DNA of 64,000 nt from Magnolia sinica. Its lineage: Eukaryota; Streptophyta; Magnoliopsida; Magnoliales; Magnoliaceae. The notes under the pieces are model-generated. The model was not told where the DNA came from. It saw only the letters and a list, made by a program, of their open reading frames with translations, and searched no databases. Below are positions 12,253 through 48,559 of the stretch, piece by piece. The DNA lies in contig NC_080577.1 in the NCBI RefSeq assembly GCF_029962835.1, positions 27,014,501-27,078,500 of the forward strand. Reading direction: 5' to 3'. The position numbers were made by a program, and so were the translations under genes. Each line of letters begins with the position of its first letter. Within the stretch, counting starts at the first letter, position 1.

Positions 12253-12621
12253 CTAGCCTTGAGATCTCATTTGGAGATCTCTCGAATTCGAACCCCACTC
12301 CATGGCCTCTGCGACAGCCCGCTGGCGCTCGTCCATGCTCTCTTCACCTTTCTCATGATCATTGTCACTCATCATTCTCTCTTGGCTGGGTGGAGCAGGA
12401 GTTGGCAGGGGACCAGAGGTCCCTCCATCTGATGGAGCCGTTGCGAGGAAGCTGAGGGCAGTGACGACATCGGTTATCAAGGGGCGAAGTATGCCCTCCT
12501 CTTGGAGACACATGGCAGAGACAGCGACTGCTTGATTAAGGCCTCTCATAGGGAAGTCCCCTTGAAGGAGAGGGTCAGCCAACTCCATGAACCTCTTTGG
12601 ATTTTTGAAAATGGGTTGAGC
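12253..12621 (-). CDS. Kinase exon 5 (C-lobe end and tail)
   Basis: It follows the acceptor TTCTTACAG and encodes 122 residues up to a TAG. The first part continues the kinase C-lobe ([37 protein letters not shown]). The last 50 or so residues are a low-complexity, acidic tail. Confidence 0.92.
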
Positions 12622-15600
12622 CTGTAAGAAACAATAAGAGCTCAGTGTCACAGACTTGACATTTGCAAGAGGATAAATCTAGGACTTCGCCAATTTGTAT
12701 TCTTCTTGTACGTTAGAGGCTATGTATATAGCCTGTAGAAAATTACAGAGAATTTTAAAGAGGGCTAAAATTATGTAGGGTAGTGTAGAGGTCTTTGGAA
12801 TGTTCTAGAGTTCTCTGTTGTGTTTTTATAATAAAAATAAATTTTAAAAATAAAAGTTTATTTTTAGTAAATAAATAAATATATTGATTATTAAAACTTT
12901 TCATAAAAAGAGTGTATAGCAAGTTGGTAAGAGAAGGGGTTTTTGCTTATGCAATCAGGGTTCAAATCTCCGCGCGTGCGCTGCTTGGGTGCTTTATTAG
13001 GCGCACTTAGCACCTCGCACGTGCGCATCATCTCATGGAGCCAAAAGAGCCTTAGTCTTTTTGGTACATGGTTTAATTTTTTTGAGCCATAGTGCAACTT
13101 GATTTGAACTAGGGTCTACCCTGAAGTATCATTAACCTTAGTGTTGATTGAGAGTGACTGTGACATGGTTGTACATGTGGCACCTATGACATATGTCGCT
13201 TATATGGGAACAATTAGGATGATTAGGACATGTGACTACAGTTTTAAACTGTTGGGTAATTGTTTATCTAAAAGGGTACATAAATAAGTACCATAGGACA
13301 AAAGGTCATGTCCTTTTATGGAAGAATATTGTTTGCTGTGAATGGGTGTGGATGTCTTGAAGACGCACATGAGTATCTCTTCAGGAAGAACTCCATAACC
13401 ATTCAATTGCTATAAATCTTGGATACTATAATCCAAAAGATATTCTCTCAATTTTCCAGCCGCGTTTTTTCTGAACTCAAGTAAAGGCAAATCGGTGTCA
13501 AAACTAGAGATTTGTTCAACACTTAAATGTTCAAATTTTTGTGTTGAAATTTGGATTGAGAGTTTATTGTATCGTGAAGACAATTTGCAGATTTTATTTG
13601 TTTGCATTTGCTGGAACTACCAAAAAAAGGGTAGTAAATCTATCTTGAAAAATTGACTATTCAAGTCAAGCCTTGAACCCGATAGATCTGATTGTCTCAT
13701 TATCTCTTCCCTCTATCCTCCGTTGTGTACAAGATTCATCATTTTTCCAACAGTTCTCTAGTGATTTTTGTAGAGAGAGTAGTGTAGAATAGTCTAAAGG
13801 GTTTGTAGAGGTCTCTAGAATGTTCTAGAGTTCTCTAGCGGGTTTTGTAGAGAGAGTAGTGTAGAATAGTCTAAAGGGTTTGTAGAGCATTCCCGGCTGT
13901 TGGATGATTGCCACATTAGCCATCCATGTAAAGTAACTAGAAGGCTCTTAGATCTATATAAGGGAGAGGGGTCCTATTTCTCACCTCAGAAAGCTATATG
14001 CTTTGGAGATCTTTGAGTAGTAGAAGCATTATTCACTTCAATCCTCTCATATGCTCTCCTTTTCCAAGTACCTTGGCTACAATTGGGCCATAGGGTGACT
14101 CATCCACAATGGGACTGCAAGTGCAAACAATGGCACTGTGAGTGCAAGTGCCATATTGTTTATGCTTGGGGAAGCACTCAGGCTGTGACATCAGGCACTA
14201 AGTACAATGTATAAGGGAGAAAACAGCGCAATTACGATGTATGATCATATGATATACCTCAAAACAGGACTTGTGGCCTGTTTGCACATTGGGTGGAATC
14301 CCAACTTCATGGAATTTTATCCAAAACGACATCAATCTGAAATCCTAGGGTGTTTGGTCTATCAAAAAAAAGCCATGATGATGGGTGGAAACAAAATGGA
14401 TAGGGGGCTATACCATCCAATCGATCGGATACATCCATATACATACTGAAGGGTAAGATAGCTTTAAGTTTTAAAATTTAAGTAGCAACTGAAATATGGT
14501 AACTGATGCAGAACAATTAACCACTTGCTCTAAAAGCTCGAACTGCCCCACTTCACATAGGTTCCGCTTTACACGAGCCATCCGCCTCACATGGGCTGCC
14601 CACCCCGAGTGTGCCCCTGCATCCCATAGGCTACCCCACTCGATCTCGGTGTGAAAATGCCCCCGTATTAATCACCTCTGGTGAGGAGTCTCGAATACAA
14701 GACCTCCCACTTTGATACCAATTTGATGCAAGACAATTAAGCACTTGCTCTAAAAGCTCGAACTGATAGAGTATGGAAAATTAATCTATTTATCTCATAG
14801 CCCAGGCCCCACATCCCATGGGTTAAGACCTCGGTCAAACTCCACTTGTGGGCTCCACTTCACATGGGTTTTGCTTCACACGAGCCACCCGCCTCACACG
14901 GGTCGCCCACCCCGAGTGTGCCCCTGCATCCCACAGGCCACCCCACTTGAGCCCGGTGTGAAAATGCCCCTGCATTAGTAACCTTCTAGAGATGAATGGA
15001 TCATGCGATGGACGACAACAAAGAGACATTGTACGGTCAAACAGAGAGAGCATCCCCAAAAATCATTTGAAAAGCTCACATAAGCTTCCGAGCTATGTTA
15101 TGTGGATATGATTGTATGTCTTGGGTATGGCCTTTAGAATTAAATATAAAAGTTGTATCTGTAGCTTCTCATAATCCAGTTCACTTAGAACAAAATCATT
15201 CTAACAAGATTCAAATCTCAAACTTCATTACAAAACCCATGTCTGAAGCTCGCTGACACAGACGTTAGGAGAAAAAAAAAAACCTTTAGCTCTTGTAATT
15301 TAGCATAATTTATACATACTATTCATATAATTCTGCGAAACATCTCTTACTTGTTCTAAATCTTTTGCATTTATGAACTGAATTTCATGCAATAGCACAT
15401 TTTAAAATCTAGTAATATATCTGTATGAACGTGACCATTTTCGGTGTTTAAGGGGCAAGCAATGCACATTCAGGTTCATGGCAAGTCAGAAAAACATTGT
15501 GTCTATTGGAAAGATATAGGAGAGAAATTACCCAAGTAGCTAGGTTCTGTTCCTCAGTAGGCCTGGTAGTATCAATGGCTCTTCTCCCTGTGATTAGCTC

Positions 15601-18600
15601 CAGCAAAACAACTCCAAAGCTGTACACATCTGATTTCACCGTCAGCTGACCCGTTCTCGCATACTCAGGTGCACAATAGCCATAGGTCCCCATCACTCTC
15701 GAGGAGACGTGGGTCTTATCTCCGATTGGACCGAGCTTAGCAAGCCCAAAATCTGATAGTTTTGGATTGAATTGTTCGTCGAGCAAAATGTTAGATGATT
15801 TCAGATCACGGTAAATGACAGGCGGGTTGGCCTTCTCATGCAAATACTCCAAACCTTTGGCAGCACCAGTAGCTACTTTCATTCTAGTATACCAGTCTAA
15901 TGGTTTCTGGTCTCGTGGAAGATCTGGAAACAAAATGTCATGTGGAATCTATTCAGTTGTAATCATGCATTGCATTGAAAACATATCTATGGTACAAATG
16001 TACAATGTGTTGAACTGGAATGGCCCTTCTAGAGAAGGAGAATTCTGAATGTTGATCGTCCTCTAGCTATATCTAAGGGTATATGCTTGGATGTTCCTGA
16101 CATCAGCATGGTCCAGTACTGCCAAAAAGCAGGAGGAATGGACGACAGAATCCTGCATGATACTGATTCTGTTTCCCATACCTTCCCAAATGCTAATCGC
16201 ACCTTGTTAAGCCCTGAGGCTGGCCAACTGCCATTTTGGTGCTGCTACATAAAATGAAAAAAAAAAAAGAAGGCCCGTCTAGTTACAGTTAAAGTTGTGT
16301 TCTCATTGAACTTTTTGAACACCACTGTCCAACCATTGGTATTTGAACATGTTTGTATGAATGGACTATTTTGTTGTATTTTCTGTTGTTTGTCAAACAC
16401 CATTGTTTAGACAAGCAATGGCTCTTGTACATATTAGGCACATTGGGACGTGTGGATATGACGTGCAATTGTAGATTATTATGGCATTTGTCACACATAT
16501 GGTTACTTGAAGATGCATGGTAACAAATGTCAATATCTTGAACATGCACATCAGCATATTTGGCACATGTACATATGGATGCGGCTCATGTCTCACATGT
16601 GAGGTGCTTGAGGGTCGAATGTGACACATGTGAGGTGGTTGAAGACAAGCGGTCTCACTTATGGCACATTTGTGCATGTGGCTTATGTGGCAAATATGGC
16701 ACGTGTACAAAAGATCACTACTCCTTTTTGTAAAACCAACTATGTGTTTGTACTGCCGAGTCCATAATAATGGCTAGTTTTTTGGAGAGCTCGTCTTTGA
16801 TTTTATTGGAGTTATTGCCATTTCCGAATAATCGTAGCGGACAAACCATGGACATATGCTTTGTCTTGACAAGGTTGTTTGAATGGAACTTTTTCAGTAA
16901 CCAAACGGCCCCTAAGGGGTTCTACAATCAGTTTCTATAATTCAATCGCATATCTCTGACCAAAATAAGAATGATTGGTGTTTCTGAAAATCCATTCTGA
17001 AGTTGCACTAGCAAATAAAAACTAACTGGCAAAATCACACGGTTTGATTAAACGCAGTACAATATGATTACTGCTACTAATTAAATGGCTAGCACTACAT
17101 CAAGATGAAGAAAGCGAGAATGCCATACCAAGCAGATGGTCTTCTAGAGAACCCAAGGACATGTATTCATACACCAAAAGCCTTTGCTCTCCATCTGCAC
17201 AGTACCCGATAAGATTTACCAGATTTTGATGGTGAAGAAGGCTAAGCATCAAAACCTCAACAAGAAACTCTCTGTTTCCTTGCAATCCATTCCTGTCGAG
17301 TTGCTTAACAGCTACAACCTGTCCAAAATAAGCTGAAATTAGTACCGACTCCATAAGCATTCATAGAAGACATCCCAAAATTTTCCAAAATGGTCCAGGC
17401 ATTAGCAGATCTAATCGGTACTTGTAAGGCTGGTGATCTGGACAGTTGGTCCGATGATCATTGGAAGATCCTAAACCTTGGATCAGTGGCCACCAATAGA
17501 TGGTGAAGGAAACGGGAAAATGGGCCACTGGAAGATTAGGATTTTCCTATCTCGGGGATTTTTGGGGCATTCCCATCTATAGCATGGCCCTTCAGAGCAA
17601 CAGTCTGGATCACCAATTCATGGCATGCACATGTATGGAATCCTGCACATAGACAAGCAATATGTTTCGAAGAGGACAAGTAAGGACAGAAAACAAGCTG
17701 AGCAATAAATATACCTGGCCGTTCTCAAGGCGCCCCTTATAAACCCTTCCAAAACCTCCTTCCCCCACGAGACACTCCGGACGGAAATTCTTTGTAGCTG
17801 TAGCTAGCTCACGGAATGTGAAAGTTTGTGCGGCGATGTTTCCATTACCAGAATCTTTTGCCTCTTCACGCTCAGGTGAATTCTTCTCTTTGGGATTCTC
17901 TGCACGTGGAAGAATGGAGTGAGCATGCCATCATCATCCTATAAAATCATAGTCATCAACAACAAAGGTTTGTCCCGGCTATTTGGGATTTTGGGTTATG
18001 TCATCATCATCATCATCATCTAAGCCTTGTCCCAACTAATTGGGGTCAGCTACATGAATTAAAATTTGTGGAAAAAGTTTCACGCCGGCTGCCAACTTGA
18101 CACAACTCACCTCCTTTATGCAGGCTTGGAATGGCAGTGAGAGCACAAAACTCCCACGGGTGTTAGTTCCATGTTGTATCAAACCCATTTTGAGTTATGT
18201 CACACGCGAGAAAATATAATTGAAATTTAAGTCATCTTCTCTGCTTTGTTGTCTACTTCTGTTTGAGTGCAATTCGTAATCGAAATCGATTATGTGGCCA
18301 AGCCAACTTGGTTTATGGGAGTAAGCTTAAGGGTTGTTTGGCTCCTGGGAATCCAGCACCTGGGAAATGGATTCCATTATTGAGAGGGACTGAATTTGTG
18401 TTTGGGTCCTAGGAAAGGATTGCAATGAACTCCCATGGGAATCCAATTTGCAAAATTTGTCCCTTTTAAAATTCCCATCTTTAAGATGGGTTGCAAAATT
18501 TCCCATCCAACAATCATTTATTTGAAGAGGATAAAAAGCCTCTCCTCTCTTCTCCTCTCCATTCCCAGTATCCGAACACAAACTGGTTGCATAAGAATAA

Positions 18601-20059
18601 CTTTTCCAGTACCCAAAAACCATAGACAGAATCTGTTTCCCAGGAACAAATTCATGACCCTTTTAAGATTCTAGGGAGCCAAACAACCCCTCACGGCCTG
18701 TTTGGATTAACTCCATCATAAGAATGAAATGGAGTGAGGCCAGCTTCATGAGTTTTTTTTTTTTTTTTTTTGAAAGATAGCCTCATGAGTATTTTGTGAA
18801 GCAAAACTATTAAATGCAAATGGTGAGATGCGCAAACTACTTCCATCCGCAAAATGTGTCCCAAAATAAGAATGTAATGATAATCAGTTGAACCTGATTA
18901 TCATCTCATTATCATAATGGGCGGTGCATGCTTACTTCTTCCCATATTCTTGGGCAGGTTGAAACTGGCTGCTGGCTCATTGTTGACATATCTACTATAA
19001 ACTCTATACAATGTTGAATATGGTAACAAACACATCAAGTGATGAATGGTTGTCCAGAGTCACGGAAATGAAAAATGCCAAGTACACTGTCCACAGGATT
19101 GGTGGTGGACACAAGACAAAGTGGAACACGTTCCAGATCTACATCGCCCATCAGGCGGGCCCCACGTGTAGATGCCCTGAGCCAAAGATCAGGAAGGTTC
19201 GCATATCTAGTGGGTGACATATGTACGTTGAGTGCACTGTTGGTCAATTTTTGACAATCTGTTTATTTTGTACATGTGTAGCTGACCAGATGAGAGAATC
19301 ACCCTGACGTCCGGCCAGGACCATCTTCTCAGTGGGCCCTGCCAAATGAACAGTTTGGATCGGTGACATGTGCAGGCACTATCCCAATGGTACACGCATT
19401 TGTAAGAACTCACTTAGTAGGGCCCCATGGAAATTACAAGCACAAAGAGTCACATGTGTGGTATGGAATTTGGCATGCGATACTTCATAACAACAATGCA
19501 TATGAAGAATAATAAGCTAAGAGTAAGATTTTAATCGAGATGAGGAGAATATGAGTTTCAGAATTGAAAGGAAATAAAATGTGGATATTACGGAGACTTC
19601 TAACAGCTCTCATGTGTTATCATATCTTGAAAAGGAACTCCATGGTGTTGTGGTATAACATATATTCAGATGGAAGGAGAAAAATCGTCACAAATTTTCT
19701 CATGAACTGTGTGACAGATGGAGCTGTCAAAGCAAACCAGCCATTTACATGACTCTGGAGAGAAGTTCTAATGAACAATGAAAGATGGTAGTATTAACTG
19801 AGACATATCAGTAGTGTTATTTTTTTATTTTTTTTTAAAATAGTTTTTTTAAAAGTTTTTTTAGTTGTTTATTTTATTTTATTTTATTTTTTTGACAATT
19901 TACTATGCTTCCATGATTGACAAGGCAATTGAGAAGCTTACCAGGCTGTTGTTGTGGGGAATTGTCGTTTTGGGGAGCTGGTGGTGACCGCTCCCTCTTG
20001 CTGGCATTCCTTTTTGTCTCTTTCTTTTCACTGGAAGAGAAACAAGGAAAGCAACTCAT
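12253..20059 (-). CDS. Receptor-like cytoplasmic kinase, RLCK-VII PBL27/PBS1-like, five exons
   Basis: This is a Ser/Thr protein kinase of the class that relays signals from cell-surface receptors at the plasma membrane. Arabidopsis PBL27 acts in chitin signalling. Exons on the minus strand are 20059-19942, 17899-17715, 17318-17129, 15923-15532 and 12621-12253, all with GT-AG borders and matching phases, giving about 417 residues. Motifs: glycine loop GEGGFG (residues 85-90), VAVK lysine 106, catalytic YRDLK (Asp204), DFG (222-224), activation segment [10 protein letters not shown] and APE (249-251). The N-terminus MSCFPCF offers Cys3 and Cys6 for palmitoylation but lacks Gly2. The C-terminal tail is acidic and charged. 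An in-frame upstream ATG at 20083 is a possible alternative start. Its 5' flank lies in a large inverted duplication and its introns carry several transposons. The family call is firm; the exact orthologue is not. Confidence 0.92.
12885..13095 (+). mobile_element. Possible tRNA-derived SINE in kinase intron 4
   Basis: A box-A-like TATAGCAAGTTGGTAAGAG at 12914 and a box-B-like GGGTTCAAATCT at 12958 lie about 40 bases apart, as in tRNA-derived SINEs. No target-site duplication was identified, so the limits are approximate. Confidence 0.5.
13752..13888. repeat. Tandem duplication of about 78 bp in kinase intron 4
   Basis: Two copies begin near GTTCTCTAGTGATTTTTGTAG and GTTCTCTAGCGGGTTTTGTAG. 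Both continue with AGAGAGTAGTGTAGAATAGT and CTAAAGGGTTTGTAGAG. A related diverged copy lies at 12770-12820, so about 0.9 kb seems to have been inserted between repeat units. Confidence 0.7.
14504..14977 (-). mobile_element. TRIM/SMART-like mini LTR retroelement with 5-bp TSD
   Basis: The element is flanked by GTAAC at 14499-14503 and 14978-14982. Two direct repeats (14504-14670 and 14724-14977) share TGATGCA at one end and GCATTA or GTATTA at the other. The 53-bp piece between them, read on the minus strand, starts AATTGGTATCAAAGTGGGAG, a primer-binding site close to the complement of initiator tRNA-Met. The right repeat is longer by an internal segment at about 14770-14850. It lies in intron 4 of the kinase gene, on the same strand as the gene. 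Confidence 0.8.
15532..15923 (-). CDS. Kinase exon 4 (catalytic and activation loops)
   Basis: It follows the acceptor TTTCCAG and ends TTGG|GTAATT. It encodes residues 165-295, with [23 protein letters not shown] and [12 protein letters not shown]. All catalytic residues are present. Confidence 0.95.
16271..16913. mobile_element. Possible hAT-like MITE in kinase intron 3
   Basis: The left end GGCCCGTCTAGTTACAG resembles the complement of the right end, GGGGCCGTTTGGTTACTG. The inside holds GCACATGTG-type repeats and no gene. No target-site duplication was recognised, so this is a weak call. Confidence 0.35.
17129..17318 (-). CDS. Kinase exon 3 (catalytic lysine and helix C)
   Basis: It follows the acceptor TTGGACAG and ends CTTG|GTATGG. 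It encodes residues 102-164, with [19 protein letters not shown] and the hinge-region [16 protein letters not shown]. The last base pairs with AT of exon 4 to make Asp165. Confidence 0.93.
17715..17899 (-). CDS. Kinase exon 2 (glycine-rich loop)
   Basis: It follows the acceptor GTGCAG and ends CAG|GTATAT. It encodes residues 40-101, including the family hallmark [20 protein letters not shown] and the nucleotide-binding loop. Confidence 0.92.
18004..18186 (-). mobile_element. Retroposon with (ATG)n tail and 16-bp TSD in kinase intron 1
   Basis: Direct repeats ATTTTGGGTTATGTCA (17988-18003) and ATTTTGAGTTATGTCA (18187-18202) differ at one base. Read on the minus strand, the body ends with ACCCCAATTAGTTGGGACAA and a run of ATG triplets. 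That 3' end is widespread in plant genomes. The long TSD and short tail indicate target-primed insertion of a SINE or a truncated LINE. Confidence 0.75.
18331..18690. mobile_element. hAT-like MITE in kinase intron 1
   Basis: The left end is GGGTTGTTTGGCTCCTGGGA and the reverse complement of the right end is GGGGTTGTTTGGCTCCCTAG. The homology continues inwards (AATCC/AATCT, CTGGGAAA). About 360 bp long and non-coding. A second GGCCTGTTTGG end begins right after it at 18696. Confidence 0.7.
19942..20059 (-). CDS. Kinase exon 1 (N-terminal membrane-anchor region)
   Basis: It encodes 39 residues plus one base, beginning [13 protein letters not shown] and ending QQQP. The donor is G|GTAAGC. The split codon joins AG at the start of exon 2 to give Glu. 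The start at 20059 was chosen because its product resembles the N-termini of PBL27-type kinases. Confidence 0.85.
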
Positions 20060-20149
20060 TTCCCAAATCCGATTTCCGAACAAAGTAACCCTGTAGTTCT
20101 TCCCAGTACTGTAATTTTCAAATCAGAAGTTGAGCCTTTAGCCCCAAGT

Positions 20150-21891
20150 CCTGAATCAAAATCGATTACCGATTCCCTGAAAACAAGCTGGAATGAATGT
20201 AGTGGATCAGAACCCAAATTCCCAAATCCCTAAATTGATTTCCATAATTCATCAAACACATCCCACCAACCCGACCTCCAAAGCCCGGATAGTCACATCA
20301 AAATCTTGTTGACCCAGATAAAGAATACGCCAAAATCCCATCCACCCAATTCCCAATTTCATAAACAAAACAAAAGTACATAAAAATCCGTCGACCCAAT
20401 TCACGATTTCATCAAACAAGATCTAAAACATCAAAATCTCATCGACCCACATCACCATTTCATCCCAAAAAAATATTAGAAAGAAAAAAAATCTCAACAA
20501 ATATCCAATTCCAATCAGAGAAACAAAACCCGATTCTGGAAAGGCCTGACAACTGGAAAACCCTGACAGATTTCACGAATCAGGGCAAGAACTAGTCTTC
20601 AGACCCAACCATGTTTGGGTATGAAAAAGGAAGGGAAGATGGTAAGGTTCTGTCCGTCACTTCTCCACAGAAAAAGGGAGAGATTTTCGGAGATTTGAAG
20701 GTGTCTAAGGAAGGAGACGTGGATCCACATTCCAGCCTATGTGAAGGGTACAATGCCGTTGGAGATTTTGGTTAGGATAGAAAAAAAAAAGAAAAGAAAA
20801 TGATTTGACCGAGAGGAATGAGGAGAGACGAGTTTCTCGTTGCCACAATTTTGAACTGTTTTCTATAAAAATAGCGTGCGAATCTAACCGTTTGAGATGG
20901 AGATTACGTTTGGAGATTTAAATTAGGGGCATGAGAGTAACGTCTATCGGCGCATGTTAGTGGAACCAAGCGTTAGAATATAAAGTGCACCGCGGGTGAA
21001 GTGGGGATGTTCCAGCCGTCGCCTCACGGACGCAGATTGGGTACTACCCCTGCCTGTCCCGAGCTCGAAACAGGCTGGAGTCTGAGGGTCCACCGTGATA
21101 TATGGGTTTCATCCACACCGTCCATCCATTTTTTTTCATATAATTTTAGGGTAAATGAAAAAAATGATTTATATATAATGTTTAAATGGACCACACGATA
21201 GGAATCAGAAATTATAATGACACTCACCGTTGAAGCCTTCCTAAGGCCCACCTTGATGTTTATTTTCCATCTAACCTATTCATAAGGTCACATATACATG
21301 GAAGAAGGTAAAACACAAATATAAGCTTGATCCAAAACTTTTGTGGCCTTTAAGAAGTTTTCAACGATAGAAATTCAATCCCCAATGATTGGTCAACTTT
21401 TTTGGAATTATGCCTTAAAATGATATGAAAATATAGATGGACGGTGTGGATGAAACACAAAATAACAGTGGATCCTCAAGAGTCTCACTGTCATGAGCGG
21501 GGGTGATACCCAATCCGTGTAGCTGTACCTTTTGCAAGCAACTTTCCTATAACCACGGGGAGCGGATGAGGTGAGAGTCTGCCTCACCGAAGAAGGTGCG
21601 GCCCATACCATGGGCCCACCTTCATCTATCTATTATGTATCCACGCCGTCTGTATTTTGAATATTATTTGGCCTTTTTTGGGATGAAAATATCCTCTCGT
21701 GCGGCAATTGCTTTTCGTAAAAGGTGACATGTACTTTTAAGAATGATGGTATAGGCCCTTCTAAATTAATAACTAAGGTCATCCATCATCTGATCTACTA
21801 GGTACACTTTTATCGGATAAGCATGAATCCACGGGAGGTAGGATCATTTCGAAAAATCAAGTTGGAGTTGTCATTGGTCCGCAACTGCATA
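20150..21891. repeat. Left arm of a 3.9-kb inverted repeat (kinase 5' region)
   Basis: This arm is the near-complement of 22311-24036. It starts at CCTGAATCAAAATCGATTAC, about 90 bases above the start codon, and covers the presumed 5' leader, the promoter and a foldback MITE-like segment at about 21000-21610. It ends near GGTCCGCAACTGCAT. Arm differences are scattered single bases and small indels, so it is not a recent perfect copy. Confidence 0.9.
20840..20880 (-). promoter_or_regulatory. Candidate core promoter of the kinase gene
   Basis: On the minus strand the sequence reads CGCTATTTTTATAGAAAACA at about 20855-20876. This is a TATA-like stretch some 800 bases above the start codon, ahead of a CT-rich leader. 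It is duplicated in the other arm of the inverted repeat (23310-23340). The call rests on motif and position only. Confidence 0.35.
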
Positions 21892-22310
21892 CATCAATAT
21901 ATATAATTTATTATAATAATCAATATACATATATTATTGTATATATTATATTACATATATAATATATATAATGAATATAATATAGTTGTTCACAAATAAC
22001 TATATTTATTAGTAATTATTATATATATTAACTATATTATTATATAATATTATACTATATATTAAATATCATAACTATTATAATAATATAGTTATAATAT
22101 ATTATTAATATTATAATATTATTACATAATTAATATATTATTATAATATTATTCATAATAATTATAGTATCATATAATATAATATATAATATATAATATA
22201 ATATTATTGAATAACCAAGCTATAGTATATTAATATATATTATAATTTTACCACAGTTCTTTAAGAAGTTGTCATACCCAATTGAGTTCAGATTTAACAC
22301 ACACAGTTAA
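21892..22310. other. AT-rich loop of the inverted repeat
   Basis: About 420 bases of almost pure A and T made of ATATAATATTAT words. It contains TTGAATAACCAAGCTATAG at 22206, followed by TTTTACCACAGTTCTTT. Both words also occur at 25390-25450, outside the repeat. Confidence 0.8.
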
Positions 22311-24036
22311 TGCAGTTCGGACCAATGACAACTCCAGCTTGATTGTTCGAAATGATCCTACCTCTCGTGGATCCATGCTTGTCTGATAAAAGTGTAGTAG
22401 ATCAGATGATGGATGACTTCAATTATTAATTTAGCAGGGCCTATACCATCGTTCTTAAAAGTACATGTCACCTTTTACAAAAAGCAATTGCTGCAGGAGA
22501 GGATATTTTCATCCCGAAAAAGGCCAAATAATATTCAAAATACAGACGGCGTGGATACATAATAGATAGATGAAGGTGGGCCCATGGTATGGGTTGCACC
22601 TTCTTCGGTGAGGCGGGCTCTCACCTCATCCGCTCCCCGTGGTTACAAGAAAGTTGCTTGCAAAAGGTACAGCTACACGGATTGGGTACCACCCCCTCTC
22701 ATGACAGTGAGACTCTTGAGGGTCCACCGTTATATATGTGTTTCATCCACACCGTCCATCTATTTTTTCATATCATTTTAAGGCATAATTCCAAAAAAGT
22801 GGACTAGTCATTGGGGATTGAATTTCTACCGTTGAAAACTTCTTAATGGCCACAGAAGTTTTAGATCAAGCTTATATTGTTTTTTACTTTCTTCCATGTA
22901 TATATGACCTTATGAATAGGTTAAATGGAAAATAAACATCAAGGTGGGTTTTAGGAAGGTTTTAACGATGAACGTCATTATAATTTCTGATTCTTATCGT
23001 GTGGTCCATTTAAACATTGTATATAAATTATTTTTTTCATTTACCCTAAAATTATATGAAAAAATGGATGGACGGTGTAGATGAAACCCATATATCACGG
23101 TGGACCCTCAGACTCCAGCCTGTTCCGAACTCAGGACAGGCGGGGGTAGTACCCAATCTGCGTCCGTGAGGCGACGGCTGGAACATCCCCACTTCACTCG
23201 CGGTGCACTCTATATTCTAACGCTTGGTTCCACTAACATGCACTAGTAGACGTTACTCCCACGCCCCTAATTTAAATCTTCAAACGTAATCTCCATCCCA
23301 AACGGTTAGATTCGCACGCTGTTTTTATAGAAAACAGCTCAAAATCGTGGTGACGAAAAACTCGTCTCTCCTCATTCCTCTCGGTCAAATCATTTTCTTT
23401 TCTTTTTTTTCTATCCTAACCAAAATCTCTAACGACATTGTACCCTTCACATAGGCTGGAATGTGGATCCACATCTCCTTCCTTAGATATCTTCAAATCT
23501 CCAAAAATCTCTCCATTTTTCTGCGGAGAAGCGACTGACAGAACCTTACCATCTTCCCTTCCTTTTTCATACCCAAACATGATTGGGTCTGATGACTAGT
23601 TCTCGCCCTGATTCGTGAAATCTGTCAGGGTTTTCCAGTTGTCAGGTCTCTCCAGAATCGAGTTCTGTTTCTCTGATTGGAATTGGATATTTGTTGAGAT
23701 TTTTTTTATAATATTTTTTTGGATGAAATGGTGATGTGGGTCGTTGAGATTTTAATGTTTTAGATCTTATTTGATGAAATCGTAAATTGGGTTGATGGAT
23801 TTTTATGTACTTTTGTTTTATTTATGAAATTGAAAATTTGGTAGATGAGATTTTGGTGTATTTTTTATCTAGGTCAACAGGATTTTGATGTGACTATTCG
23901 GGCTTTGGAGGTCGGATTGGTGGGATGTGTTTGATGAATTATGAAAATCAATTTAGGGATTTCGAAATTTGGGTTCTGATCTACTACATTCAGTCTAGCT
24001 TGTTTTCAGGGAATTGGTAATCAATTTTGATTCAGG
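22311..24036. repeat. Right arm of the 3.9-kb inverted repeat
   Basis: It carries the complement of the kinase upstream region: the MITE-like segment at 22590-23190, the promoter-like region at 23200-23400 and the leader up to TTTTGATTCAGG at 24036. It contains no kinase coding sequence. A transcript started from this promoter copy would run rightwards into AT-rich DNA. Confidence 0.9.
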
Positions 24037-26831
24037 TATAATTAATAATTAGTATAGGTCCCTCCATTATAATATTATTACACTATAACTATCATATTTA
24101 TATATTATACTATTATCAATATTATACTAATAATCGATTATAAGTAATACCGTCAATTGATTATAATTAATTAATATATAACTTATATTATAAGTTATAT
24201 TATATATATTAATATAATATAACTTATAATATTAATGGGTCCATAACATATTATAATATTAATTCGCCTTATGAACATATTATATAATATATTATAAAAA
24301 TAATATATATTAAGATATTAATATAACCATAATAGTTATAAATTATAATATAAGCCATGGATCACAAAAAATGCTATTACTAAACAATATGTGTTAAGTT
24401 ATCATAATATAAGTCATGTATCACAAAGAATAATATTACTAAATAATATGTGTTAAGTTATCATAATATAAGCCATGTAATATATTATATCGAAACAACT
24501 AGTATTATAATGGTATAAGTTGTGTTATATAATAATATGATATTATAGTATTTATATAACTTATATTAATCTTTCATAACACATTATATGATAGTTATAA
24601 TATGATAATTGTAATTATCAATATTTCATTGTTAGTATGATGGTCGTATATGTTATATTTTCCAACGGTGTGGCATAATAATATGAATGTGTTAATAGAA
24701 TATGATATATAATAATAGTTACATATATTATTAGATCATAGATGATCTATTAAACTAGGTAATATTATATTATCATGACCTAACCGTTGACTTGTTAGTA
24801 TTAGTTATAAAATATTATAATAATTATCATAATAATTACCATAATAGTTTAATATATATTAACATAATATTATACATTACAAAGTGGATAATATTACTTA
24901 ATATTATAATATAATTATAATATATTATATTTATATATAATACTAATATATTAATACTATAATATATAATTTATTAATAATACTTAATTAAGCTTACTTA
25001 TCTTTAATAAATAGTTTAATTGCTCATTATATAATATTATATGAATTATAATATTATATAGTTATATAATTATTATTAGTGGAGATATATTATAAAGGTA
25101 TATGATAACTTATATGAATTTTATAAATCCAAATCCTTAGATTATTGGGTAATTATGATTATTATAATTATTTTAATAATATATCATATGTGAGATTGTA
25201 ATATGATAATATTATAATTATATATGCCCTGCATTAAGAGAGTTAATATTATTTTTAGCTATTAGTGGACGAGTTAATATTATTATATCATGTAGTATTA
25301 TAATAGTTACGAATAGTAAGTTTAAAAGGGTCACATTTATTGTAGAAATTATAATAATTATAAAGATAGTTGCTATTTTCGTTTATATATAATTTATAAT
25401 TTTACCATAGTTCTTTTGTGATCCCACGGGTTGAATAACCAAGCTATAATATATTAATATATATTATAACTTATATGGTTATTTATATAATTAAATAGTT
25501 ATAGTATTATATATGTTATACTGGTATAATTTCATAGTAATATAATAGTTATATTACTGGCTTATAATATATAAGATCATGACATAATATTTTAACTTAT
25601 ATATATCATATTTGTATTTGATTATAGGTGATAATTATCATATGTGTATAATTATAATATTATATTAGGGCCACACCAGATGAATGACCACACCATCTCA
25701 TAGGATCAATCTGCCACACCTCCGGAGAAGAGAATGACATCAAAATTACGCGTAGCTTTTATACGTACGATTATACTAGCACTAAGCGTGCTTGGGCGAC
25801 CTCATGGGAAGTCCTCGTATCTCACCCCTCCCTTTTTGTCCTTTTTGGCATTCCCGGGTCCTATTTTAACTTTTTTCACATTCTTAGGATCGATAAAAGT
25901 TTTATAATATATGATGATATAGTTAATATTAGGCATACAATAATATAATCTTAATATATTATTATAATTATATAATATTGTGATAATATTATAGTATTAT
26001 TATTTTAATAATTATAATTATATAGGTAATATTATCATATATATTATATGTTATGATTATAATATTATGATAATATATATGATTATAGTTATATAATATA
26101 GTTAACTATCATATCATATTAATTATATATTATATGTATAATTATATAGTTATATGATTATATTATAATTATATAAATAATTTATATAATTAACTATATT
26201 ATATCATGTAGTTAATAATTACTACATGATCCTCCTACTGTAAAATTTTCAGATGAAGCTTGATGAGCTACAGATTAATTATATATTATATGATATAATT
26301 AATATATAATTAACTCATAATATTATACTATTAATACATGATAAAGAAATTCATGATGTGTATTAGAATTATTTTGAGATATTATATAAACAAAATAATA
26401 GTAACCCATAATCCAATGTTATAACATATGTTATACTATAATTAATTTTTACCATAATAGTGGTTTTTATAAATAATAATTATCTTCTGTTATTTGGTTC
26501 AATAATATTATAATATAATGTATCACCTATATTAATCCAGCCGTCTAAAATATTAATAGGTTTCTTCTCATGGATTGGCTCTTCTATAGATATCTTTCTG
26601 CAAATTTCACCATGATAAGATGCACGACTCTTCTCTGGAATGTAGCCAATTCCGTTTTCAAATTTTTTATCCCTCATAAACACATTATGCAATGCTATAT
26701 TAGTGGTAATTAATATATAGTCATAATAATGGAGGGACCTATAGTTATGATATCATCACCAATCTGAATAGAACTATAGTTATGATATGTTATATATAAT
26801 AATCATAAATACTATTATGGTGCTGGAATGA
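24037..26831. other. Very AT-rich, gene-free region
   Basis: Dominated by ATAATATTATA and TATAATTATA words. Small islands of normal composition occur at 25680-25880, 26230-26270 and 26480-26700. Short reading frames occur in the islands (for example 26480-26692 minus) but have no recognisable domain. Confidence 0.7.
24347..24480. repeat. Tandem repeat of a 59-bp unit, 2.3 copies
   Basis: Units begin at 24347, 24406 and 24465 with AATATAAGYCATG and end with GTGTTAAGTTATCAT. The first two copies differ at a few bases and the third is partial. Confidence 0.85.
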
Positions 26832-29800: not shown

Positions 29801-30692
29801 TACATCATAAGTTCTACTCCTAGAATTAAACCCTAGGATGTAAACCCTAAATTCTACACTAAAACCCTAAAGGGTAACCCTAGGCGATGATCTTAAACCC
29901 TAGGTGGTATGCAGAACTTGGATCTAATTGTATAAGTTCCTGATTTATGATAGGGATTGGTTCTAAGGAAACACGCATTCTCTAGCAACACTGGTAGGGA
30001 GTTCAAAGTATAAGGTGATGATTCTTCTGCTTGAGCTTTCCGTCTTCTCATTAGCCTAAGTTATAGTTTTTATTTTAATTTATAAATGATATCTCCATTC
30101 TATTAGCATGTGTTAACTGTTGAAATTGAATTGCTATATTACATGCTTAATATTCATCCTGTATATTTGTTCATGCTTGTGGATTATTTGTGGATTGCTT
30201 ATAGACTTTAAGCTGGTAAATTAGTGGGAAACCCCCACCTATAAATGTACACCATATTTGGGATGTAACCCGACTGGTTGTGATTGAAATGGACCTTCGG
30301 CTTAGAGGTTATTGAAGGGTGGTTTAAATTGACCATTGACGTATTGACCATTGACGTGGGCTTACCATCTAGGGTTATTGTGTCCAATGGTTTTCAAGGA
30401 TGATCTTTTATCGGATAGTTTTGATACTCGCCATATGTGGCCTATTTTGGTACTCGCCCTATGCGGCTTGCTTGCTATCGCCCTATGTGGCTTTGTTATA
30501 GTATTTTTCCTATATGGGTTTGATGTTTTATACCGTGTAATCATGCGATGGTAAGCCCTATATACTGTAATATGATTGGCGATTAGTCGACAGGTTCCAT
30601 TAAACATCCTAAGATGGTAGTCTCATGAGCTGGGGATGGTGGTATGAGACATATGCCCAAGCTGTCAGCCTACACTGGGCTCTGAGCTCCCC
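26832..30692 (+). mobile_element. Long LTR fragment, family LTR-T (5' part)
   Basis: It begins TGTAACACCCCGTACTTTC, a classic Ty3/gypsy LTR start. A TATA-like CTATTAAAAGG lies at 27884 and another, CATATAAACC, at 28490. The stretch 30610-30690 (GATGGTGGTATGAGAC, then AGCCTACACTGGGCTCTGAG) matches 42600-42670 in the second LTR-T copy, as GACATGGTGGTATGGGACAC and GGCCTACGCTGGGGTGACG. It is cut off at 30692, where an LTR-G copy starts. Reading frames inside, such as 27963-28412 minus and 28333-28680 plus, overlap each other and look non-coding. Confidence 0.6.
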
Positions 30693-32764
30693 TGTCACGC
30701 CCTAAACCTGAAAATTAGATTCACAGGAATCCCGATCGCCGAATCCGGTGCCGACAGCCTCCGTAGTACCCCATTCCGGCTCCTAGCGTCCATACGCCAG
30801 ATTCCGATCCTGGGATCCTACAAGGAGAATTTTTTTTTAATGTATATTTAACTCGTAATAAGCATAACCACAAGATTACCCATTTAACAAAGACAACATC
30901 ATCATCACATATCCACTAATATAATCATTGAGTACAATACTGAAAGAAAAATACATAAATCGAAAATCAAGCTCCAGAAGACTGCTGTACGCTTCAAGCT
31001 CAACACTGCTGCAACCTAACATCACCTGCACGCATCTATCGTGCTTAAGCTTATAGAAAGCTTAGAGGGTGGTGTAAGTGTGTGCACAAGGTAAGTGCCA
31101 AGTATTCAATACAATGTCATCGTCATACAATACCGAAAATACTGGTAATCCATAAATCGTACATTATCGGAATAAGCAGAAATACTCACAAGATCATGAA
31201 TTATCAGAGTAAGTAAAAATACTGACAAGATCATAAATCATACGATAAGAGAGTAAACGGAAATATGGACAAGTCCATGAGTCAATCAATATCAGAATAT
31301 GCAATATAAAACAGTTAGCAAATGAGGAGTCATAAAGAGCCAAATATCAAATGCCGAGGATGCGATGCAATATGTAATTCTTGATGAGTCCATGAATAGC
31401 ATCAGCCGTATTTAGACCATATAAATGCGAAAACACAGTAACCCAAAGTGTCATATGCTGCGGATGTAATGCAATATGCGGTGCGAATGGAATGACCATA
31501 TTGGAGTGTGAAGTTGGGATGATAGTACGTAATATCGCAGGCTATGGGGTCCATCACAAGAGACTTCTATCCAAACCAGTCCCATACTTAAATTTAGATA
31601 GTTAGACATGATGTGGTAAACTCCTGATCTCAGGTTAATCGCACGCCCCAACTGAAATCCTAGCCTTTGCGAAGGTACATGTAACAAATAGTTACGCACC
31701 ACCAGCCCGAGTGGATAGTGAATGAATGAATGAATGAGTATGCAACTCCTGCTCAATAAGTCCACATATCAGTACGGTTCCTCTCTGGGATCATCACCGG
31801 GGGTCTATTACACTCTATACCAGCTTTCCGCCCTTATCCAAGTGTACAACTGGGTAAGTGGAAGAGACCTCACTATCCACCTACCAATATCGAACCCGGC
31901 TCGTCGATAACGGATCCATTCCTCAAGCTGGTTAAACTCAACCTAGACATTGCCCACTCACTCAGGCGGGTAAGGTTATACCCCCTCCCAACCAACCACG
32001 ACACAGTGGGAGACACGGCCTACTAGTATACGGCCCTCATGCGCTCATATATACTTACTCGATCTCGATGTTGGGGCGTCCTCTGTTACCAAGAGGGTTT
32101 AGGGATTTTCACCCAGGGCCATCTATGACAGCCCGATGCTAGTAACAGATTTTTAGTGTCCCATCTGACCATCCACGATATGCCTGTGGAGGCTACGACC
32201 CTGATGTCGCTAGGGCGTACAGTAATCACAATGCAAGATGCATGAATCATACAATCCAGTCATGCATCAATCCTGCGCATACTGTGCACTTATGTGAGAT
32301 AACCTCCACTTATCTGGGAGTCTCATAACAACCTGCCCAATGTTATATGCAATTGTCAACCACATCTTATAACAAACATGCAGATGATGCGTATGGGCAT
32401 GTATCATGATGCTATGCGGTCACATACTCATAATCGGTATCAATAACCAGCATCGACAATCAACCGCGATAATGTGGACATTTAACCAACATTGTTCCCT
32501 AAGGAATGACCCACATAGAGCCTAACATATAGTGGACCCACGGCCTCACATAAGGCCTAATATATAACACAGTGGGCCTTACCCAAGGGCCACATATACA
32601 CAACAGGTGGGCTCTACTCATGGGCCTTAAATACATGCATGTGGGCCCTACACATGGGTCTCGAATACATCAAATGGGCTATGCATCATGGGCCTAATAC
32701 ATATCACAATGGGCCTTTCCCATAGTCCATGAATACATTACAATGGGCCCCAACTACGGGTCGT

Positions 32765-33080
32765 ATATACATCATGTAGGTCTCGACAGATTGGAATCGG
32801 CAATCGGTCATGATAATCGAAATCGACAAATCGGTCACGTCAATCGGAATCGATCGATAATTAGAATCGGCAATCGGTCACGATGATCGGAATCGATCGA
32901 TAATCGAAATTGGCAATCGGTCACGATAATCGGAATCTATCGATAATTAGAATCAACAATCGATCACGATGATCAGAATCGATCGATAATCAGAATCGGC
33001 AATCAGTCACAACAATCAGAATCGATCAATAATCGGCCTCGATGATCGGAGTCGGCAACCGACATTAATGAGAGTGGCCT
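32765..33080. repeat. Tandem array of about 43-bp AATCGGAATCGATCGATAAT units
   Basis: About six to seven degenerate copies of GGAATCGATCGATAATTAGA followed by ATCGGCAATCGGTCACGATG. The corresponding place in the solo LTR (59705-59870) has the same AATCGG/CCGATT words in fewer, shorter units. Confidence 0.85.
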
Positions 33081-33599
33081 AACAAGGCCTAAGGGAAGGT
33101 CACAATGTGGACATTAAACCATCATTGCCTAACAATGTGGCCATTTAACTAACATTGCTCCCAAGGAGTGGCCCACATAGAGCCAAACATATAGTGGGCC
33201 CATGGCCTCACACAATGGCCTAATGTACATCACAATGGGCCTCACTCAAGGGCCTAATACACATCACGAAGGGCCTCATCATATGGGCATCACATACATC
33301 AAATGGGCCACAATACATGGGTCTCATATACATCAAATGAGCCGCAATACATAACCCATCACATGGGCCTAATACACATCACATGGCTGCATCACATGGG
33401 CCGGAAATGTATTTCAATGAGCCTCATCATATGTGCCATAATCACATTACATCAGGCCCTGCCCATGGGCCTTAAATACATCACAATGGGCCACAACCCA
33501 TGGCCTTCAAATACACAATAGGTGGGCCCTACACATGGGCCTCATACACATCAAATGGGCTGCATCAATGGGCCGCACTAATGGGCCTCATAGATGGGC

Positions 33600-34130
33600 T
33601 ACAAATATATTAAGGTGGACTGCACAGATGGCCACAAAATACATCAAAGTGGGCCTGACGGATGGGCCACAAAATACATCAAAGTGGGCCCGACGGATGG
33701 GCTACTAGAATACACCAAAGTGGGCCCGATGGATGGGCCACTAAAATACACCAAAGTTGGCCCAACAAATGGGCCACAAAATACATCAAAGTGGGCCTGA
33801 CAAATGGGCCACTAAAATACTCCAAAGTGGGCCCGACAAATGGGCCACAAAATACATCAAAGTGGGCCCGATGGATGGGCCACTAAAATACACCAAAGTG
33901 GGCCTGACAAATGGGCCACAAAATACATCAAAGTGGGCCCGACGGATGGGCCACTAAAATACACAAAAGTGGGCCTGAAAAATGGGCAACAAAATACATC
34001 AAAGTGGGCCCGACAGATGGGCCACTAAAATACTCCAAAGTGGGCCCAACAAATGGGCCACAAAATACATCAAAGTGGGCCCGATGGATAGGCGATTAAA
34101 ATACACCAAAGTGTGCCTGACAATGGGAGC
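33600..34130. repeat. Minisatellite of alternating 35/36-bp units (71-bp dimer)
   Basis: About 15 copies of AAAATACATCAAAGTGGGCC followed by CGACGGATGGGCCAC, alternating with a TAAAATACACC variant. The 71-bp dimer is the higher-order unit. Every unit carries GTGGGCC and ATGGGCC words. Reading frames in all three forward phases remain open across it, giving the same recurring peptide, so they are not genes. Confidence 0.93.
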
Positions 34131-34463
34131 TTGGATTACAACTAAAATCATTTCAATAGTTGTAGGTTGCAACATGCGTATCACTGTGCACAATCATTTC
34201 ATGGGGCACACGGCCCACCAATGATGATCAACACCATCTAAACATTGTCCAAGTAAATCAGCACCATCCAAACCTTGGACAACATCGTCCAAATATTGTC
34301 CAGCACCGTCCAACTTAATCTGGATGGTGTAGATTAAAATAAATAAATCAAGGTGGGTCCCGCTGTCGTGATCAAGTGGACGGTGAGGGATATAACACAT
34401 ATCTTGTGACTAAACCCACCGTCCTAGCTTATGGACGATGGGATATAGAATATACACCAAGAT

Positions 34464-45230: not shown

Positions 45231-46100
45231 GAGTATGTTAAACAAGTTGGACTAGAAACACCTCATGAAATAGCTTCGAATCCCTATCGGGCAACATACT
45301 TTCAGGTAAACTTTAACTTTAAGATTCTTCAAAACAAGGACATGTCAATTAAATTTCAACACCTTAATATATAACCTCGACAATCTCCATTTAGGACTGC
45401 ATTGGTGCAATCGACGGGACATACATTCCTACCTACGTACCAACATTTAACAATACGAGCTTCTAGAATAGGAAATGGTTCATGTCCCAAAATATACTTG
45501 ATTCTTGTTCATTCAATATGCAAGTTTTATATGTTTTGGCAAGTTGGGAGGGTTTGGCTGCAGACGCAAGGTTCTCCATAATGTTCTGACATGTACTGAT
45601 GATCCTCAAAAGGTTCCACACGATAACAATTATATAAAAATAAGCCATGAACTTTCTCCATAATGCTTTTCCTTTTAAATTACACTTGAGCATGTCCATA
45701 CACTAAATATTGTAGGAAAATATTATGTTGTCGATGCTGGATATGCACATTTATTGAGTTTTATGGCTCCCTACCATGGTGTTCGTTATCACCTATAAGA
45801 CTATCGGACTGGGAGAGCTCCCGCGAACAAGGAGTTATTTAACTATCGTCATGTGCAACTCCAAAATGCAATTGAGTATTATTTCGGGGTTATAAAAGTG
45901 TGTTTTCAAATCCTAAAGATGGTGGTGCAATATTCTTTTGAAACACAAGTGAAAATTGTAGTGGCTTGCATTGTACTACATAATTTCATACATTTGGATG
46001 ACGATCCGGATGAAAGTCTTTGTGCTGCTGGGATATCTAAAGGAGATATAGAAACTAACCTGACGTTGTATGAGGTTTTAATAAATGATGAGAGGTAGTA
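44783..46100 (+). pseudogene. PIF/Harbinger DDE transposase, decayed
   Basis: Recognisable pieces in order: an N-terminal part (44783-45001) ending RMTHRAFF; a helix-turn-helix region with HQFIRSGEMVSRHFRCVLDA (45115-45180); then EYVKQVGLETPHEIASNP (45232-45290). The DDE core follows: DCIGAIDGTYIP at 45395 (first Asp), KWFMSQNILDSCSFNMQFLY at 45475, YYVVDAGYAHLLSFMAPYHG at 45722 (second Asp), NAIEYYFGVIK at 45868 (Glu) and VVACIVLHNFIHLDDDPDE near 45957-46012. Introns probably lie at 45306-45394 and before 45717. Stop codons, a one-base loss near 45565 and a CT microsatellite at 45182-45229 break the frame. It paired with the MYB-like gene downstream. Confidence 0.9.
45182..45229. repeat. (CT)n microsatellite inside transposase coding sequence
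   Basis: A CT run with one TT interruption. It falls where family members have a short LSLSPEYVKQ-type stretch, so it looks like an expansion of a small coding CT tract. Confidence 0.9.
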
Positions 46101-46440: not shown

Positions 46441-47577
46441 ATGTCTAAAATGTGGAGAACCCCTAACAAGACACCTTCATAATCGCCTGCAAAAACTTTC
46501 ATTGTTCCCACCCATTGTTCACCGTTAAATAGGCCTCAAAAGTCTCTAGCTAAGCCTTCAGCTAGAGGACCAAAAGTTAAGTGGATAAATGCAATGGACA
46601 AAGTGTCCTTTTCCATTTTATTAGAGTAAATTGCACTAGGATGCAAGGTTGATAATGGATTCAAGAGGGAGGCGTACCAAGTTGTAACTGATGAAATTAC
46701 AAAACAAACAAACGTGAGCATCAATTGGATGAATGTCCAAAATCGGATGAGGTATTACAAAAGAGAATACAACAATGTAAAAGAAATGCTTTCGGTGAGC
46801 GGGTTTGGATGGAACAGTGAGCGAATAGTTGTGACGACCCCAGATGAAGTTTGGGATGGATGGTTGAGGGTAACATGTACTTTATCTGCATTGCATATCG
46901 TGAACACTAGTTTGAGCTTAATATATATGAGTAAACTCTTACATACATGATCCTACGGTTTCATAATCATTTTCCCATTGTTCTTTATTGCAGTCCCATC
47001 CATGTGCCGAACGATTGTGGGGCAACAGAATAAATTGGATGGACAATTTAGTTGTAATCATCAGAGATAATCAAGCAACAACATGTTTTGTTAAAGCAAG
47101 TAGGAAAATTGGTGCCTCCTCATCCTGTGTGCAATGGGATTTGAATAACATGTGCTCAGATACATATAACTTCATGAATGACACTGTAGACCTATCGTCG
47201 AAGAATTTAGATGATTCAGAATCAGATTTCAGCACTTCCACCAGCAGTCACCCTTCTTTAAATCAATCCTTTTGCAACACTCCAAACCCAGCCTCGGATT
47301 TTGATAACACTCATAGCGATAGCACTTCGAAGAAAAGGACGCGACCTACTTATCCCTATGAGGTATTCGGTACATCTATAAATAATGTCTGTCGCTGATG
47401 TAATGTGTGATTTTGGCATTCACATGAGTGACGGTAAGAAGGTGAACCGAATGGCTAGAGTGTTGAGTGCCTTGGAAGGAGTAGAGGAACTGACACAAAC
47501 TGAATTTTACAATGTCGGCGACTTACTTTCTAAGGATGAGCGACTTGCAGCCGTATTCATTAACCTACGAGGATAAC
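46441..47577 (+). pseudogene. Harbinger-associated MYB/SANT-like protein, broken
   Basis: This is the usual second gene of PIF/Harbinger elements, a trihelix/MYB-like DNA-binding partner of the transposase. The first exon (46441 to about 46870) contains VKWINAMDK, GCKVDNGFKREAYQVVTDEI and WMNVQNRMRYYKREYNNVKE, then DEVWDGWLR before GTAACA. The second (46994-47395) has SHPCAERLWGNRINWMDNLV and a Ser-rich linker, then a basic KKRTRP. A third block (47385-47576) contains VNRMARVLSALEGVEELTQT. TAA codons near 46480, 46535 and 46627 show it is not functional. Confidence 0.85.
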
Positions 47578-47747: not shown

Positions 47748-47992
47748 TTATTTTGGATTTGATAATATGTTATTATCATTTGCATAGGTGGACTTGTATT
47801 AATGTTATTCTCGTATGTGGTGGGATAGCCATTGAGACTTGTGGACTCCTTTAATTACTCTCATGTTTGTTATTTTGGATTTGATAATATGTTATTATCA
47901 TTTGCATAGGAGGACTTGTATTAAGGTTATTCTCTTATGTTGTGGGATAGCCATCGAGACTTATGGACTCCTTTAATTACTCTCATGTTTGT
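47748..47992. repeat. Tandem duplication of a 122-bp unit
   Basis: Two copies, starting at 47748 and 47870, each begin TTATTTTGGATTTGATAATA and end TTAATTACTCTCATGTTTGT. They differ at only a few positions, so the duplication is fairly young. It lies in the 3' flank of the MYB-like pseudogene. Confidence 0.92.
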
Positions 47993-48085
47993 TGCTTGTT
48001 TGCTTAAAGTAACCGTAGAACCGTATGCAAGTCTAATCCGAATATCCCTCTATTACAATATTGTATGATCTAATTGTTGTTGCAG

Positions 48086-48559
48086 ATGCTGAAGGAAAAG
48101 TATTGTGTTGTATTTGTTGGCCATCGACCTGACATATATTCTTCATGGGAGGAGGAAGGACTGCAGGTCAAAGGATTTAGCTACAGTGATCATCACTCCT
48201 TCGTATATTTTAAGGATGCAACGGATGAGTGGGAGAAATATTGGAGCCGTCGTACAACATTGGACTCAGGCCAACAACGAATAGTGGAGACATCTCCCCA
48301 GGACCACATACCCACACGAGGAAACTGTGACCCTCACCTCGTCATTCTTAACGCAGGTGGAATGTCGGATGCCAACAATGGTTGCAAGGGGTACATCGAC
48401 AGAGGATTTCAATTCAACATTTGGGATGCCAACAATGATTTCAAGGGTTACATAGATAGAGGACTTCTATCTGACCTTTGGAATGACAGTTGGTTCTGTT
48501 TTCATAGCAAACCTAGTTCTTTTTTTTTCTTTTTTCTTTGCATTGTATGTCTTGATTAA
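48086..48559 (+). CDS. RNase H1 N-terminal-like (Cauli_VI-type) domain protein, exon
   Basis: A strong acceptor (TTGTTGTTGCAG) precedes the ATG at 48086, and the frame is also open upstream to 48074. Residues 3-50 or so form the compact fold seen at the N-terminus of RNase H1 and in viroplasmin-like proteins: KYCVVFVGHRPDIYSSWEE, then QVKGFS and a YFKDATDEWEKYW helix. The rest is unfamiliar and includes a near repeat, DANNGCKGYIDRG and DANNDFKGYIDRG, ending in a Phe-rich tail. There is no RNase H catalytic domain. It could be a terminal exon of a small gene, a captured exon in the Harbinger element or a relic. Function unknown. Confidence 0.5.
   Translation: MLKEKYCVVFVGHRPDIYSSWEEEGLQVKGFSYSDHHSFVYFKDATDEWEKYWSRRTTLDSGQQRIVETSPQDHIPTRGNCDPHLVILNAGGMSDANNGCKGYIDRGFQFNIWDANNDFKGYIDRGLLSDLWNDSWFCFHSKPSSFFFFFLCIVCLD

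Follow-up and report, generated by a model that had tools for sequence, protein, structure and literature searches.

Within a 64,000-nucleotide stretch of Magnolia sinica DNA (NCBI RefSeq assembly GCF_029962835.1, contig NC_080577.1, positions 27,014,501 to 27,078,500; hereafter the window, with positions counted from its first letter), the promoter and leader of a gene for a likely RLCK-VII kinase stand beside an inverted copy of themselves. The locus raises the question of how this second copy arose, and whether the pair of arms is a source of hairpin RNA acting on the kinase gene. We find that the inverted duplication is real and far beyond chance. It probably arose in a single step, and a role in silencing is a more tentative matter.

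An inverted copy of a kinase promoter and leader

One BLAST alignment (E printed as 0.0) covers the whole palindrome, which consists of two arms around a loop:

20150-21890, minus strand: left arm in the inverted-repeat alignment, 1,741 bases, contiguous with the kinase coding exon and taken as the original copy; read leftwards, it holds the distal and proximal promoter, the first part of the leader and a probable intron of the kinase 5' untranslated region (UTR)
21891-22309, no strand: loop, 419 bases, AT-rich (11.8% GC measured on 21891-22307)
22310-24036, plus strand: right arm, 1,727 bases, an inverted orphan copy with the same sense when read rightwards, ending after CAG/G at 24036

The initial annotation had given these parts as 1.74 kb, 1.73 kb and an AT loop of about 420 bp, which is correct, and the arm alignment supports its claim that the promoter and leader of an RLCK-VII-like kinase are present twice, head to head. 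The kinase ATG is at 20059 on the minus strand, and the left arm begins 91 bases upstream of it. Identity between the arms is 93.5% over 1,727 ungapped columns, one of which is a matching base just beyond the arm. Transitions (96) far outnumber transversions (17) among the 113 differences, which give a Kimura distance of 0.0695 and are spread out, with identity per 100 bases ranging from 0.90 to 0.97. Eight indels of 1-4 bases each lie within the arms; a ninth gap of 10 columns is an effect of the outer edge and falls outside the arm.

Foldback chimeras occur in long-read data, and the palindrome could in principle be an artefact of assembly, either a foldback read or haplotypes joined head to head. 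We find this hardly credible. The arms differ by about 7% with a bias towards transitions and small indels only, the right flank is unrelated, the window contains no undetermined bases (N), and the assembly is described as built from nanopore (~100x) and Illumina (~110x) reads (PMC10999834). A trivial assembly mirror, against which the initial annotation had already argued, is ruled out by the transition-rich divergence together with the unrelated right flank.

Outward from the gene, both arms run through a probable 5' UTR intron, a leader exon, a TATA-like site, the proximal promoter, an element resembling a miniature inverted-repeat transposable element (MITE), a piece resembling a terminal inverted repeat (TIR) and a distal part. 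The components with defined positions are:

20150-20539, minus strand: left-arm region of the probable 5' UTR intron, with putative limits; rich in T in the sense direction
21083-21478, plus strand: high-copy MITE-like element of the left arm, with its right-arm mirror image at 22717-23110
21558-21651, plus strand: TIR-like piece of ~93 bases from a different dispersed MITE family, with its counterpart at 22545-22638

The probable intron region of the left arm includes a 51-base tandem repeat (20331-20464). By eye, a TATA-like site lies near 20865 in the left arm, and the right arm retains both a TATA-like site and leader sequence; such retention falls short of showing the bidirectional transcription proposed in the initial annotation.

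Is the palindrome itself a transposon? We searched 1,838,573,281 bases (1.84 Gb) of genome in 127 contigs with a method that skips very common words and scores the best candidates only, and copy counts are accordingly lower bounds. Matches of the MITE-like element reach about 21020-21502. With 20060-21070 as query, the part 20150-21015 matched only the two arms (best 40 of 56 candidates), the other listed matches being confined to the last ~55 bases, at the edge of the MITE, or to the first 87, outside the arm. The distal arm part likewise matched only the two arms, bar the TIR-like piece (best 40 of 529 candidates). Among the matches listed, only the MITE and the TIR-like piece are dispersed, and none is a copy of the whole element such as a foldback or long-TIR transposon would leave. 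No target-site duplication is visible by eye at the outer ends (agccccaagt left of 20150, tataattaat right of 24036). Together, the arm copy number among the matches listed and the missing target-site duplication rule out transposon identity on present evidence. A palindromic MITE as the centre was also rejected: the TIR-like pieces fit in direction, for which the chance is one in two, but the inner sequence matches no other listed copy. The MITE is older than the duplication, and it is present in both arms at a divergence (K 0.069) similar to that of four other arm parts (0.060-0.080). Since the arm parts, including the MITE, diverge to a similar degree, one duplication event suffices.

The rarity of such a palindrome in this genome is weakly tested. 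Inverted pairs whose arms reach 300 bases or more and match at 85% or better were found in 0 of 4 unselected 10-kb stretches of the genome, and in 0 of 63 loci (238,870 bases) that include these 4. Apart from the 4, nearly all loci of the sample had been chosen as matches of repeats or of this locus; 6 pairs overlap, leaving 57 distinct places, and only 6 loci, at 4 kb or more, could accommodate a palindrome this large. Inverted pairs below 85% identity are more common (45, in 30 of the 63 loci), and two of the 4 unselected stretches hold old inverted pairs of 70-73% over 1.4-1.7 kb. By title or abstract opening, we found no literature on this locus and none on an inverted promoter duplication with a kinase in Magnolia.

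Origin and age of the second copy

We consider it probable that the palindrome goes back to a single inverted segmental duplication, some 9 million years ago, in which the sequence from the 5' leader to the distal promoter of the kinase was copied into an AT-rich island upstream of it. A stretch of 1.74 kb would have been copied in reverse into the island directly upstream, and a 419-base piece of the island would have been left behind as the loop. The mechanism was likely repair by fold-back or template switching, where a fork stalled or a break arose in hairpin-prone AT-rich DNA. We infer all three of direction (left to right), mechanism and date. The left arm runs on into the kinase exon, and the right arm ends in AT-rich DNA, the proposed second part of the split island:

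24037-26831, no strand: AT-rich island right of the right arm, 20% GC

A high-copy repeat follows directly, from 26832. The island is tied to the loop by the 18-mer TTGAATAACCAAGCTATA, which occurs at exactly 2 places across the 1.84-Gb genome, one in the loop (22207) and one in the island (25431), on the same strand; its reversed pattern, used as a control, occurs 0 times. The 18-mer sits inside a 42-base match of 95% (22207-22248 vs 25431-25472). Because this genome-unique word is common to both, we read the loop and the island as one former AT-rich stretch above the promoter. Part of the island (24571-24982) is found again, 93% identical, at two positions of C17 (54479173 and 54597913).

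In the literature, fold-back duplications are recognised by a single-copy spacer together with short inverted homology (PMC3907307). Here the spacer between the copies is single-copy, lies outside the arms and is related to the right island; inverted homology at its edge amounts by eye to at most 2-3 bases, in AT-rich DNA. The fold-back inverted duplications described for human chromosomes likewise place inverted copies around a single-copy spacer, but they are of megabase scale and many come with a terminal deletion, whereas the present one is 1.7 kb and interstitial (PMC3907307). Duplication at the breakpoints of an inversion, as in Drosophila, was set aside; such copies are understood to sit at the two ends of the inversion and not 419 bases apart.

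The date follows from the Kimura distance. At a mutation rate of 1.2e-7 per generation of 30 years, printed per locus in the source and taken here per site (PMC10999834), a distance of 0.0695 gives a rough figure of ~8.7 million years. Persistence over millions of years with small indels only seems to speak against the replication instability proposed in the initial annotation, at least in a strong present form.

The two arms have decayed unequally. Over their whole length, differences of C/G against T/A carry T/A in the right arm 62 times and in the left arm 34 times (p=0.006). This excess is concentrated in the outer 390 bases, where C/G was lost at 22 positions in the right arm vs 2 in the left (p=3.6e-5), as compared with 40 vs 32 in the remainder (p=0.41), and the two regions differ in sidedness (Fisher p=0.0012). 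The right-arm rate of loss is raised in the outer region (22/143 vs 40/563, p=0.004); that of the left arm is lower there, non-significantly (p=0.07). The 390-base region was picked from the probable intron after the alignment had been viewed, and these p-values serve as guides. Polarisation of the differences was possible for the MITE part only, where 28 copies used as outgroup place the derived base in the right arm at 14 sites (13 of them C>T or G>A) and in the left arm at 7, with 5 unclear. We read the right arm as an orphan copy that decays beside heterochromatin-like DNA, and the left arm as better kept at its gene-proximal end. Most likely, the left copy still serves the kinase as before, and the right copy is an orphan promoter pointing into a transposon-rich stretch in which no kinase sequence was found.

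Several observations weigh against a single copying step into an upstream island. Both the direction and the single-copy ancestor are deduced from this genome alone, the polarisation of 14 vs 7 is by itself non-significant (p=0.19), and of the short inverted homology that a fold-back event predicts there are at most those 2-3 bases. Comparable AT-rich DNA is frequent in the genome (the loop matches dispersed AT-rich DNA at 68-75%, best 40 of 1,503 candidates) and elsewhere in the window, so that the argument from the island comes down to the one 42-base match. A further AT-rich stretch, at about 37 kb, is over longer spans no less similar to the loop than the island is, and the order of the neighbouring motif TATAATTTTACCA[C/T]AGTTCTTT is not conserved between loop and island. 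Finally, chance explains only poorly why the outer end of the arm falls exactly at a strong donor-like site, CAG/GTATAATT.

This last point invites a different account of the outer end. Arm homology stops exactly at CAG/G (24035-24036 vs 20150-20151), the right side reading CAG/GTATAATT and the left side CAG/GACTTGG. With a home-made matrix, the right-hand site is the best-scoring donor-like site in 23290-24100 (score 8.19). The CAG/GT at 24035/24036 could then be the true end of the leader exon and the AT-rich island an old intron, which the gene on the left would have lost exactly. That fragments of the kinase captured by a dispersed element, in at least 4 copies, also start 4-9 bases from this breakpoint would suit a former exon edge, although two breaks so close together may equally reflect chance or a fragile point. 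Yet loss by way of a cDNA would have to spare more than 1 kb of untranscribed promoter in both arms, and another leader intron, with an acceptor-like TTGTTTTCAG, appears equally plausible. We regard precise intron loss as quite unlikely. Somewhat less improbable, though still unlikely, is that a complete head-to-head duplicate of the kinase gene once existed, of which the right arm preserves the 5' end, its coding part having later been deleted or displaced by AT-rich and repeat DNA. The right arm does hold promoter and leader in the correct order, and the high-copy repeat beginning at 26832 would provide for displacement. Against this, no DNA right of 24036 in the window matches the kinase region at 1e-10, and searches with 5 exon open reading frames (ORFs) gave no protein match there better than E=0.05, which rules out a second kinase gene on that side; the genome-unique word in loop and island moreover suggests that the island was the original neighbour. 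We favour an inverted segmental copy placed directly into the island.

Possible hairpin RNA and silencing

Does the palindrome give rise to a hairpin RNA? The structure has what such an RNA would need, namely long complementary arms (1.74 and 1.73 kb, 93.5% identity) and a short loop (419 bases) beside a gene, 91 bases above its ATG. Both promoter copies, however, point away from the loop. Their transcripts, both of the same sense, would run away from the loop and could not pair with each other; with both promoters firing outward, a hairpin RNA would depend on read-through or on initiation in antisense. The long hairpin RNA proposed in the initial annotation is weakened by these two points and by the one-sided loss of C/G, even though arm length, arm identity and the short loop do suit it.

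An active silencing hairpin would work by read-through of the loop, yielding a 1.7-kb foldback RNA that is diced into small interfering RNAs (siRNAs), through which the kinase promoter would become methylated in cis, by analogy with VIM4-VIM2 of Arabidopsis or with PAI1-PAI4. We hold this to be possible but rather doubtful. Besides the dimensions of the arms and loop, it is favoured by precedent: a review counts ~486 of 634 Arabidopsis inverted repeats as yielding 24-nt siRNAs (PMC12595863), and the head-to-head VIM4-VIM2 pair is reported to yield siRNAs (PMC13213937). In Cvi-0 these are described as made by read-through, at 99.86% identity and with a ~50-bp spacer; the Col-0 copies are 92.2% identical and ~2.8 kb apart, no siRNAs are reported for them, and the small RNAs are called Cvi-specific (PMC13213937). 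The identity of 93.5% and the 419-base spacer seen here fall between the two. The outward orientation of both promoter copies, with RNAs of the same sense, counts against the silencing hairpin, as does the loss of C/G over the probable intron (22 vs 2), since siRNAs from a hairpin of 93% identity would be expected to mark both arms. A silencing hairpin concerns present function; it is compatible with the duplication origin set out above and required by nothing seen. A more ambitious version, in which the palindrome is maintained for regulation, a stress-dependent read-through hairpin yields siRNAs that tune the immune kinase in cis, and the arrangement is common to related Magnolia species, we judge very unlikely.

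The niv-525 allele of Antirrhinum is said to carry an inverted duplication near its promoter. VIM4-VIM2 in Cvi-0 resembles the present locus in its head-to-head inverted arms, its short spacer and its endogenous setting, but it consists of two complete genes with measured siRNAs, whereas here the second arm holds a promoter and leader and is known from sequence alone (PMC13213937). PAI1-PAI4 is likewise an inverted duplication at an endogenous plant gene; its coding genes lie tail to tail, and transcription may enter the second copy, unlike with the outward promoters here (cited in PMC13213937). Mu killer of maize shares the partial inverted duplication (~1.3 kb) and the promoter-bearing ends, but it derives from a transposon and silences that transposon in trans, and the read-through hairpin model is questioned in its own paper (PMC3440606). 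Finally, the gene-near inverted repeats of Arabidopsis resemble this one in lying close to a gene and in their MITE content; they form a class surveyed with siRNA data, in contrast to a segmental copy of the promoter itself (PMC12595863).

Present evidence shows no effect of the duplication on the kinase gene, and the structure is a further case of a known kind. If siRNAs were made, the locus would provide a natural magnoliid example, of approximately known age, in which a promoter carries its own inverted copy, and it would test how much arm decay and what spacer length silencing tolerates, between the Col-0 and Cvi-0 states of VIM4-VIM2. If none were made, it would be a clean example of gene-adjacent AT-rich DNA receiving an inverted segmental copy, and hence an orphan promoter.

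The kinase gene and other features of the window

The gene to the left of the palindrome is represented by the following features:

19942-20059, minus strand: first coding exon of the kinase, with its ATG at 20059 and a donor-like GTAAGC from 19941
17100-17930, minus strand: exon-bearing ORFs with glycine loop and VAVK (Pfam match for 17100-17360 only)
15448-15948, minus strand: exon-bearing ORF with catalytic loop, DFG and APEY (Pfam Pkinase, 1.4e-26)
12253-12678, minus strand: ORF resembling the last kinase exon, read by eye and without Pfam match

The kinase motifs (glycine loop, VAVK, catalytic loop, DFG and APEY) were recognised by eye in the ORFs. Two of the 4 ORFs tested contain the Pfam kinase domain, and 17610-17930 and 12253-12678 on their own gave no match. 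The closest solved structures are those of PBL2 (4.8e-51), then RIPK and BIK1, all of which we take to be RLCK-VII members; judging from these resemblances, the kinase likely belongs to RLCK-VII. None of 4,227 known RNA families reached its gathering score in 19000-26500.

The captured kinase fragment mentioned above corresponds to 18309-18452 plus 19743-20146; it is unspliced, includes the first coding exon and is present in at least 4 copies of a dispersed element (L018, L019, L020 and L021). These are ~90% alike, over some 2.8-3.1 kb among L018-L020 and over 1.6 kb common with L021. The intervening 1.29 kb of kinase intron (18453-19742) is absent from 4 of the 4 captured copies examined, with an overlap of ~7 bases at the junction, and either the window gained this sequence by insertion or the capturing element lost it by deletion.

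Further to the right is another inverted repeat, larger than the first (30692-34293 and 58589-62028). Its arms of ~3.5 kb, tandem arrays included, lie 24 kb apart and are 81% identical in their best 2.1 kb; they possibly mark the two ends of a long transposon. ORFs at 45799-46098 and 46630-46950 carry DDE_Tnp_4 and Myb/SANT-like domains, as in a PIF/Harbinger transposon, and an ORF at 48074-48559 has a ribonuclease H1 N-terminal (Cauli_VI) domain (3.4e-7). Two tandem arrays were also observed, one of 71-base units at 33592-34127 (7 copies from 33630) and one of 122-base units at 47748-47993 (2 copies, 95%).

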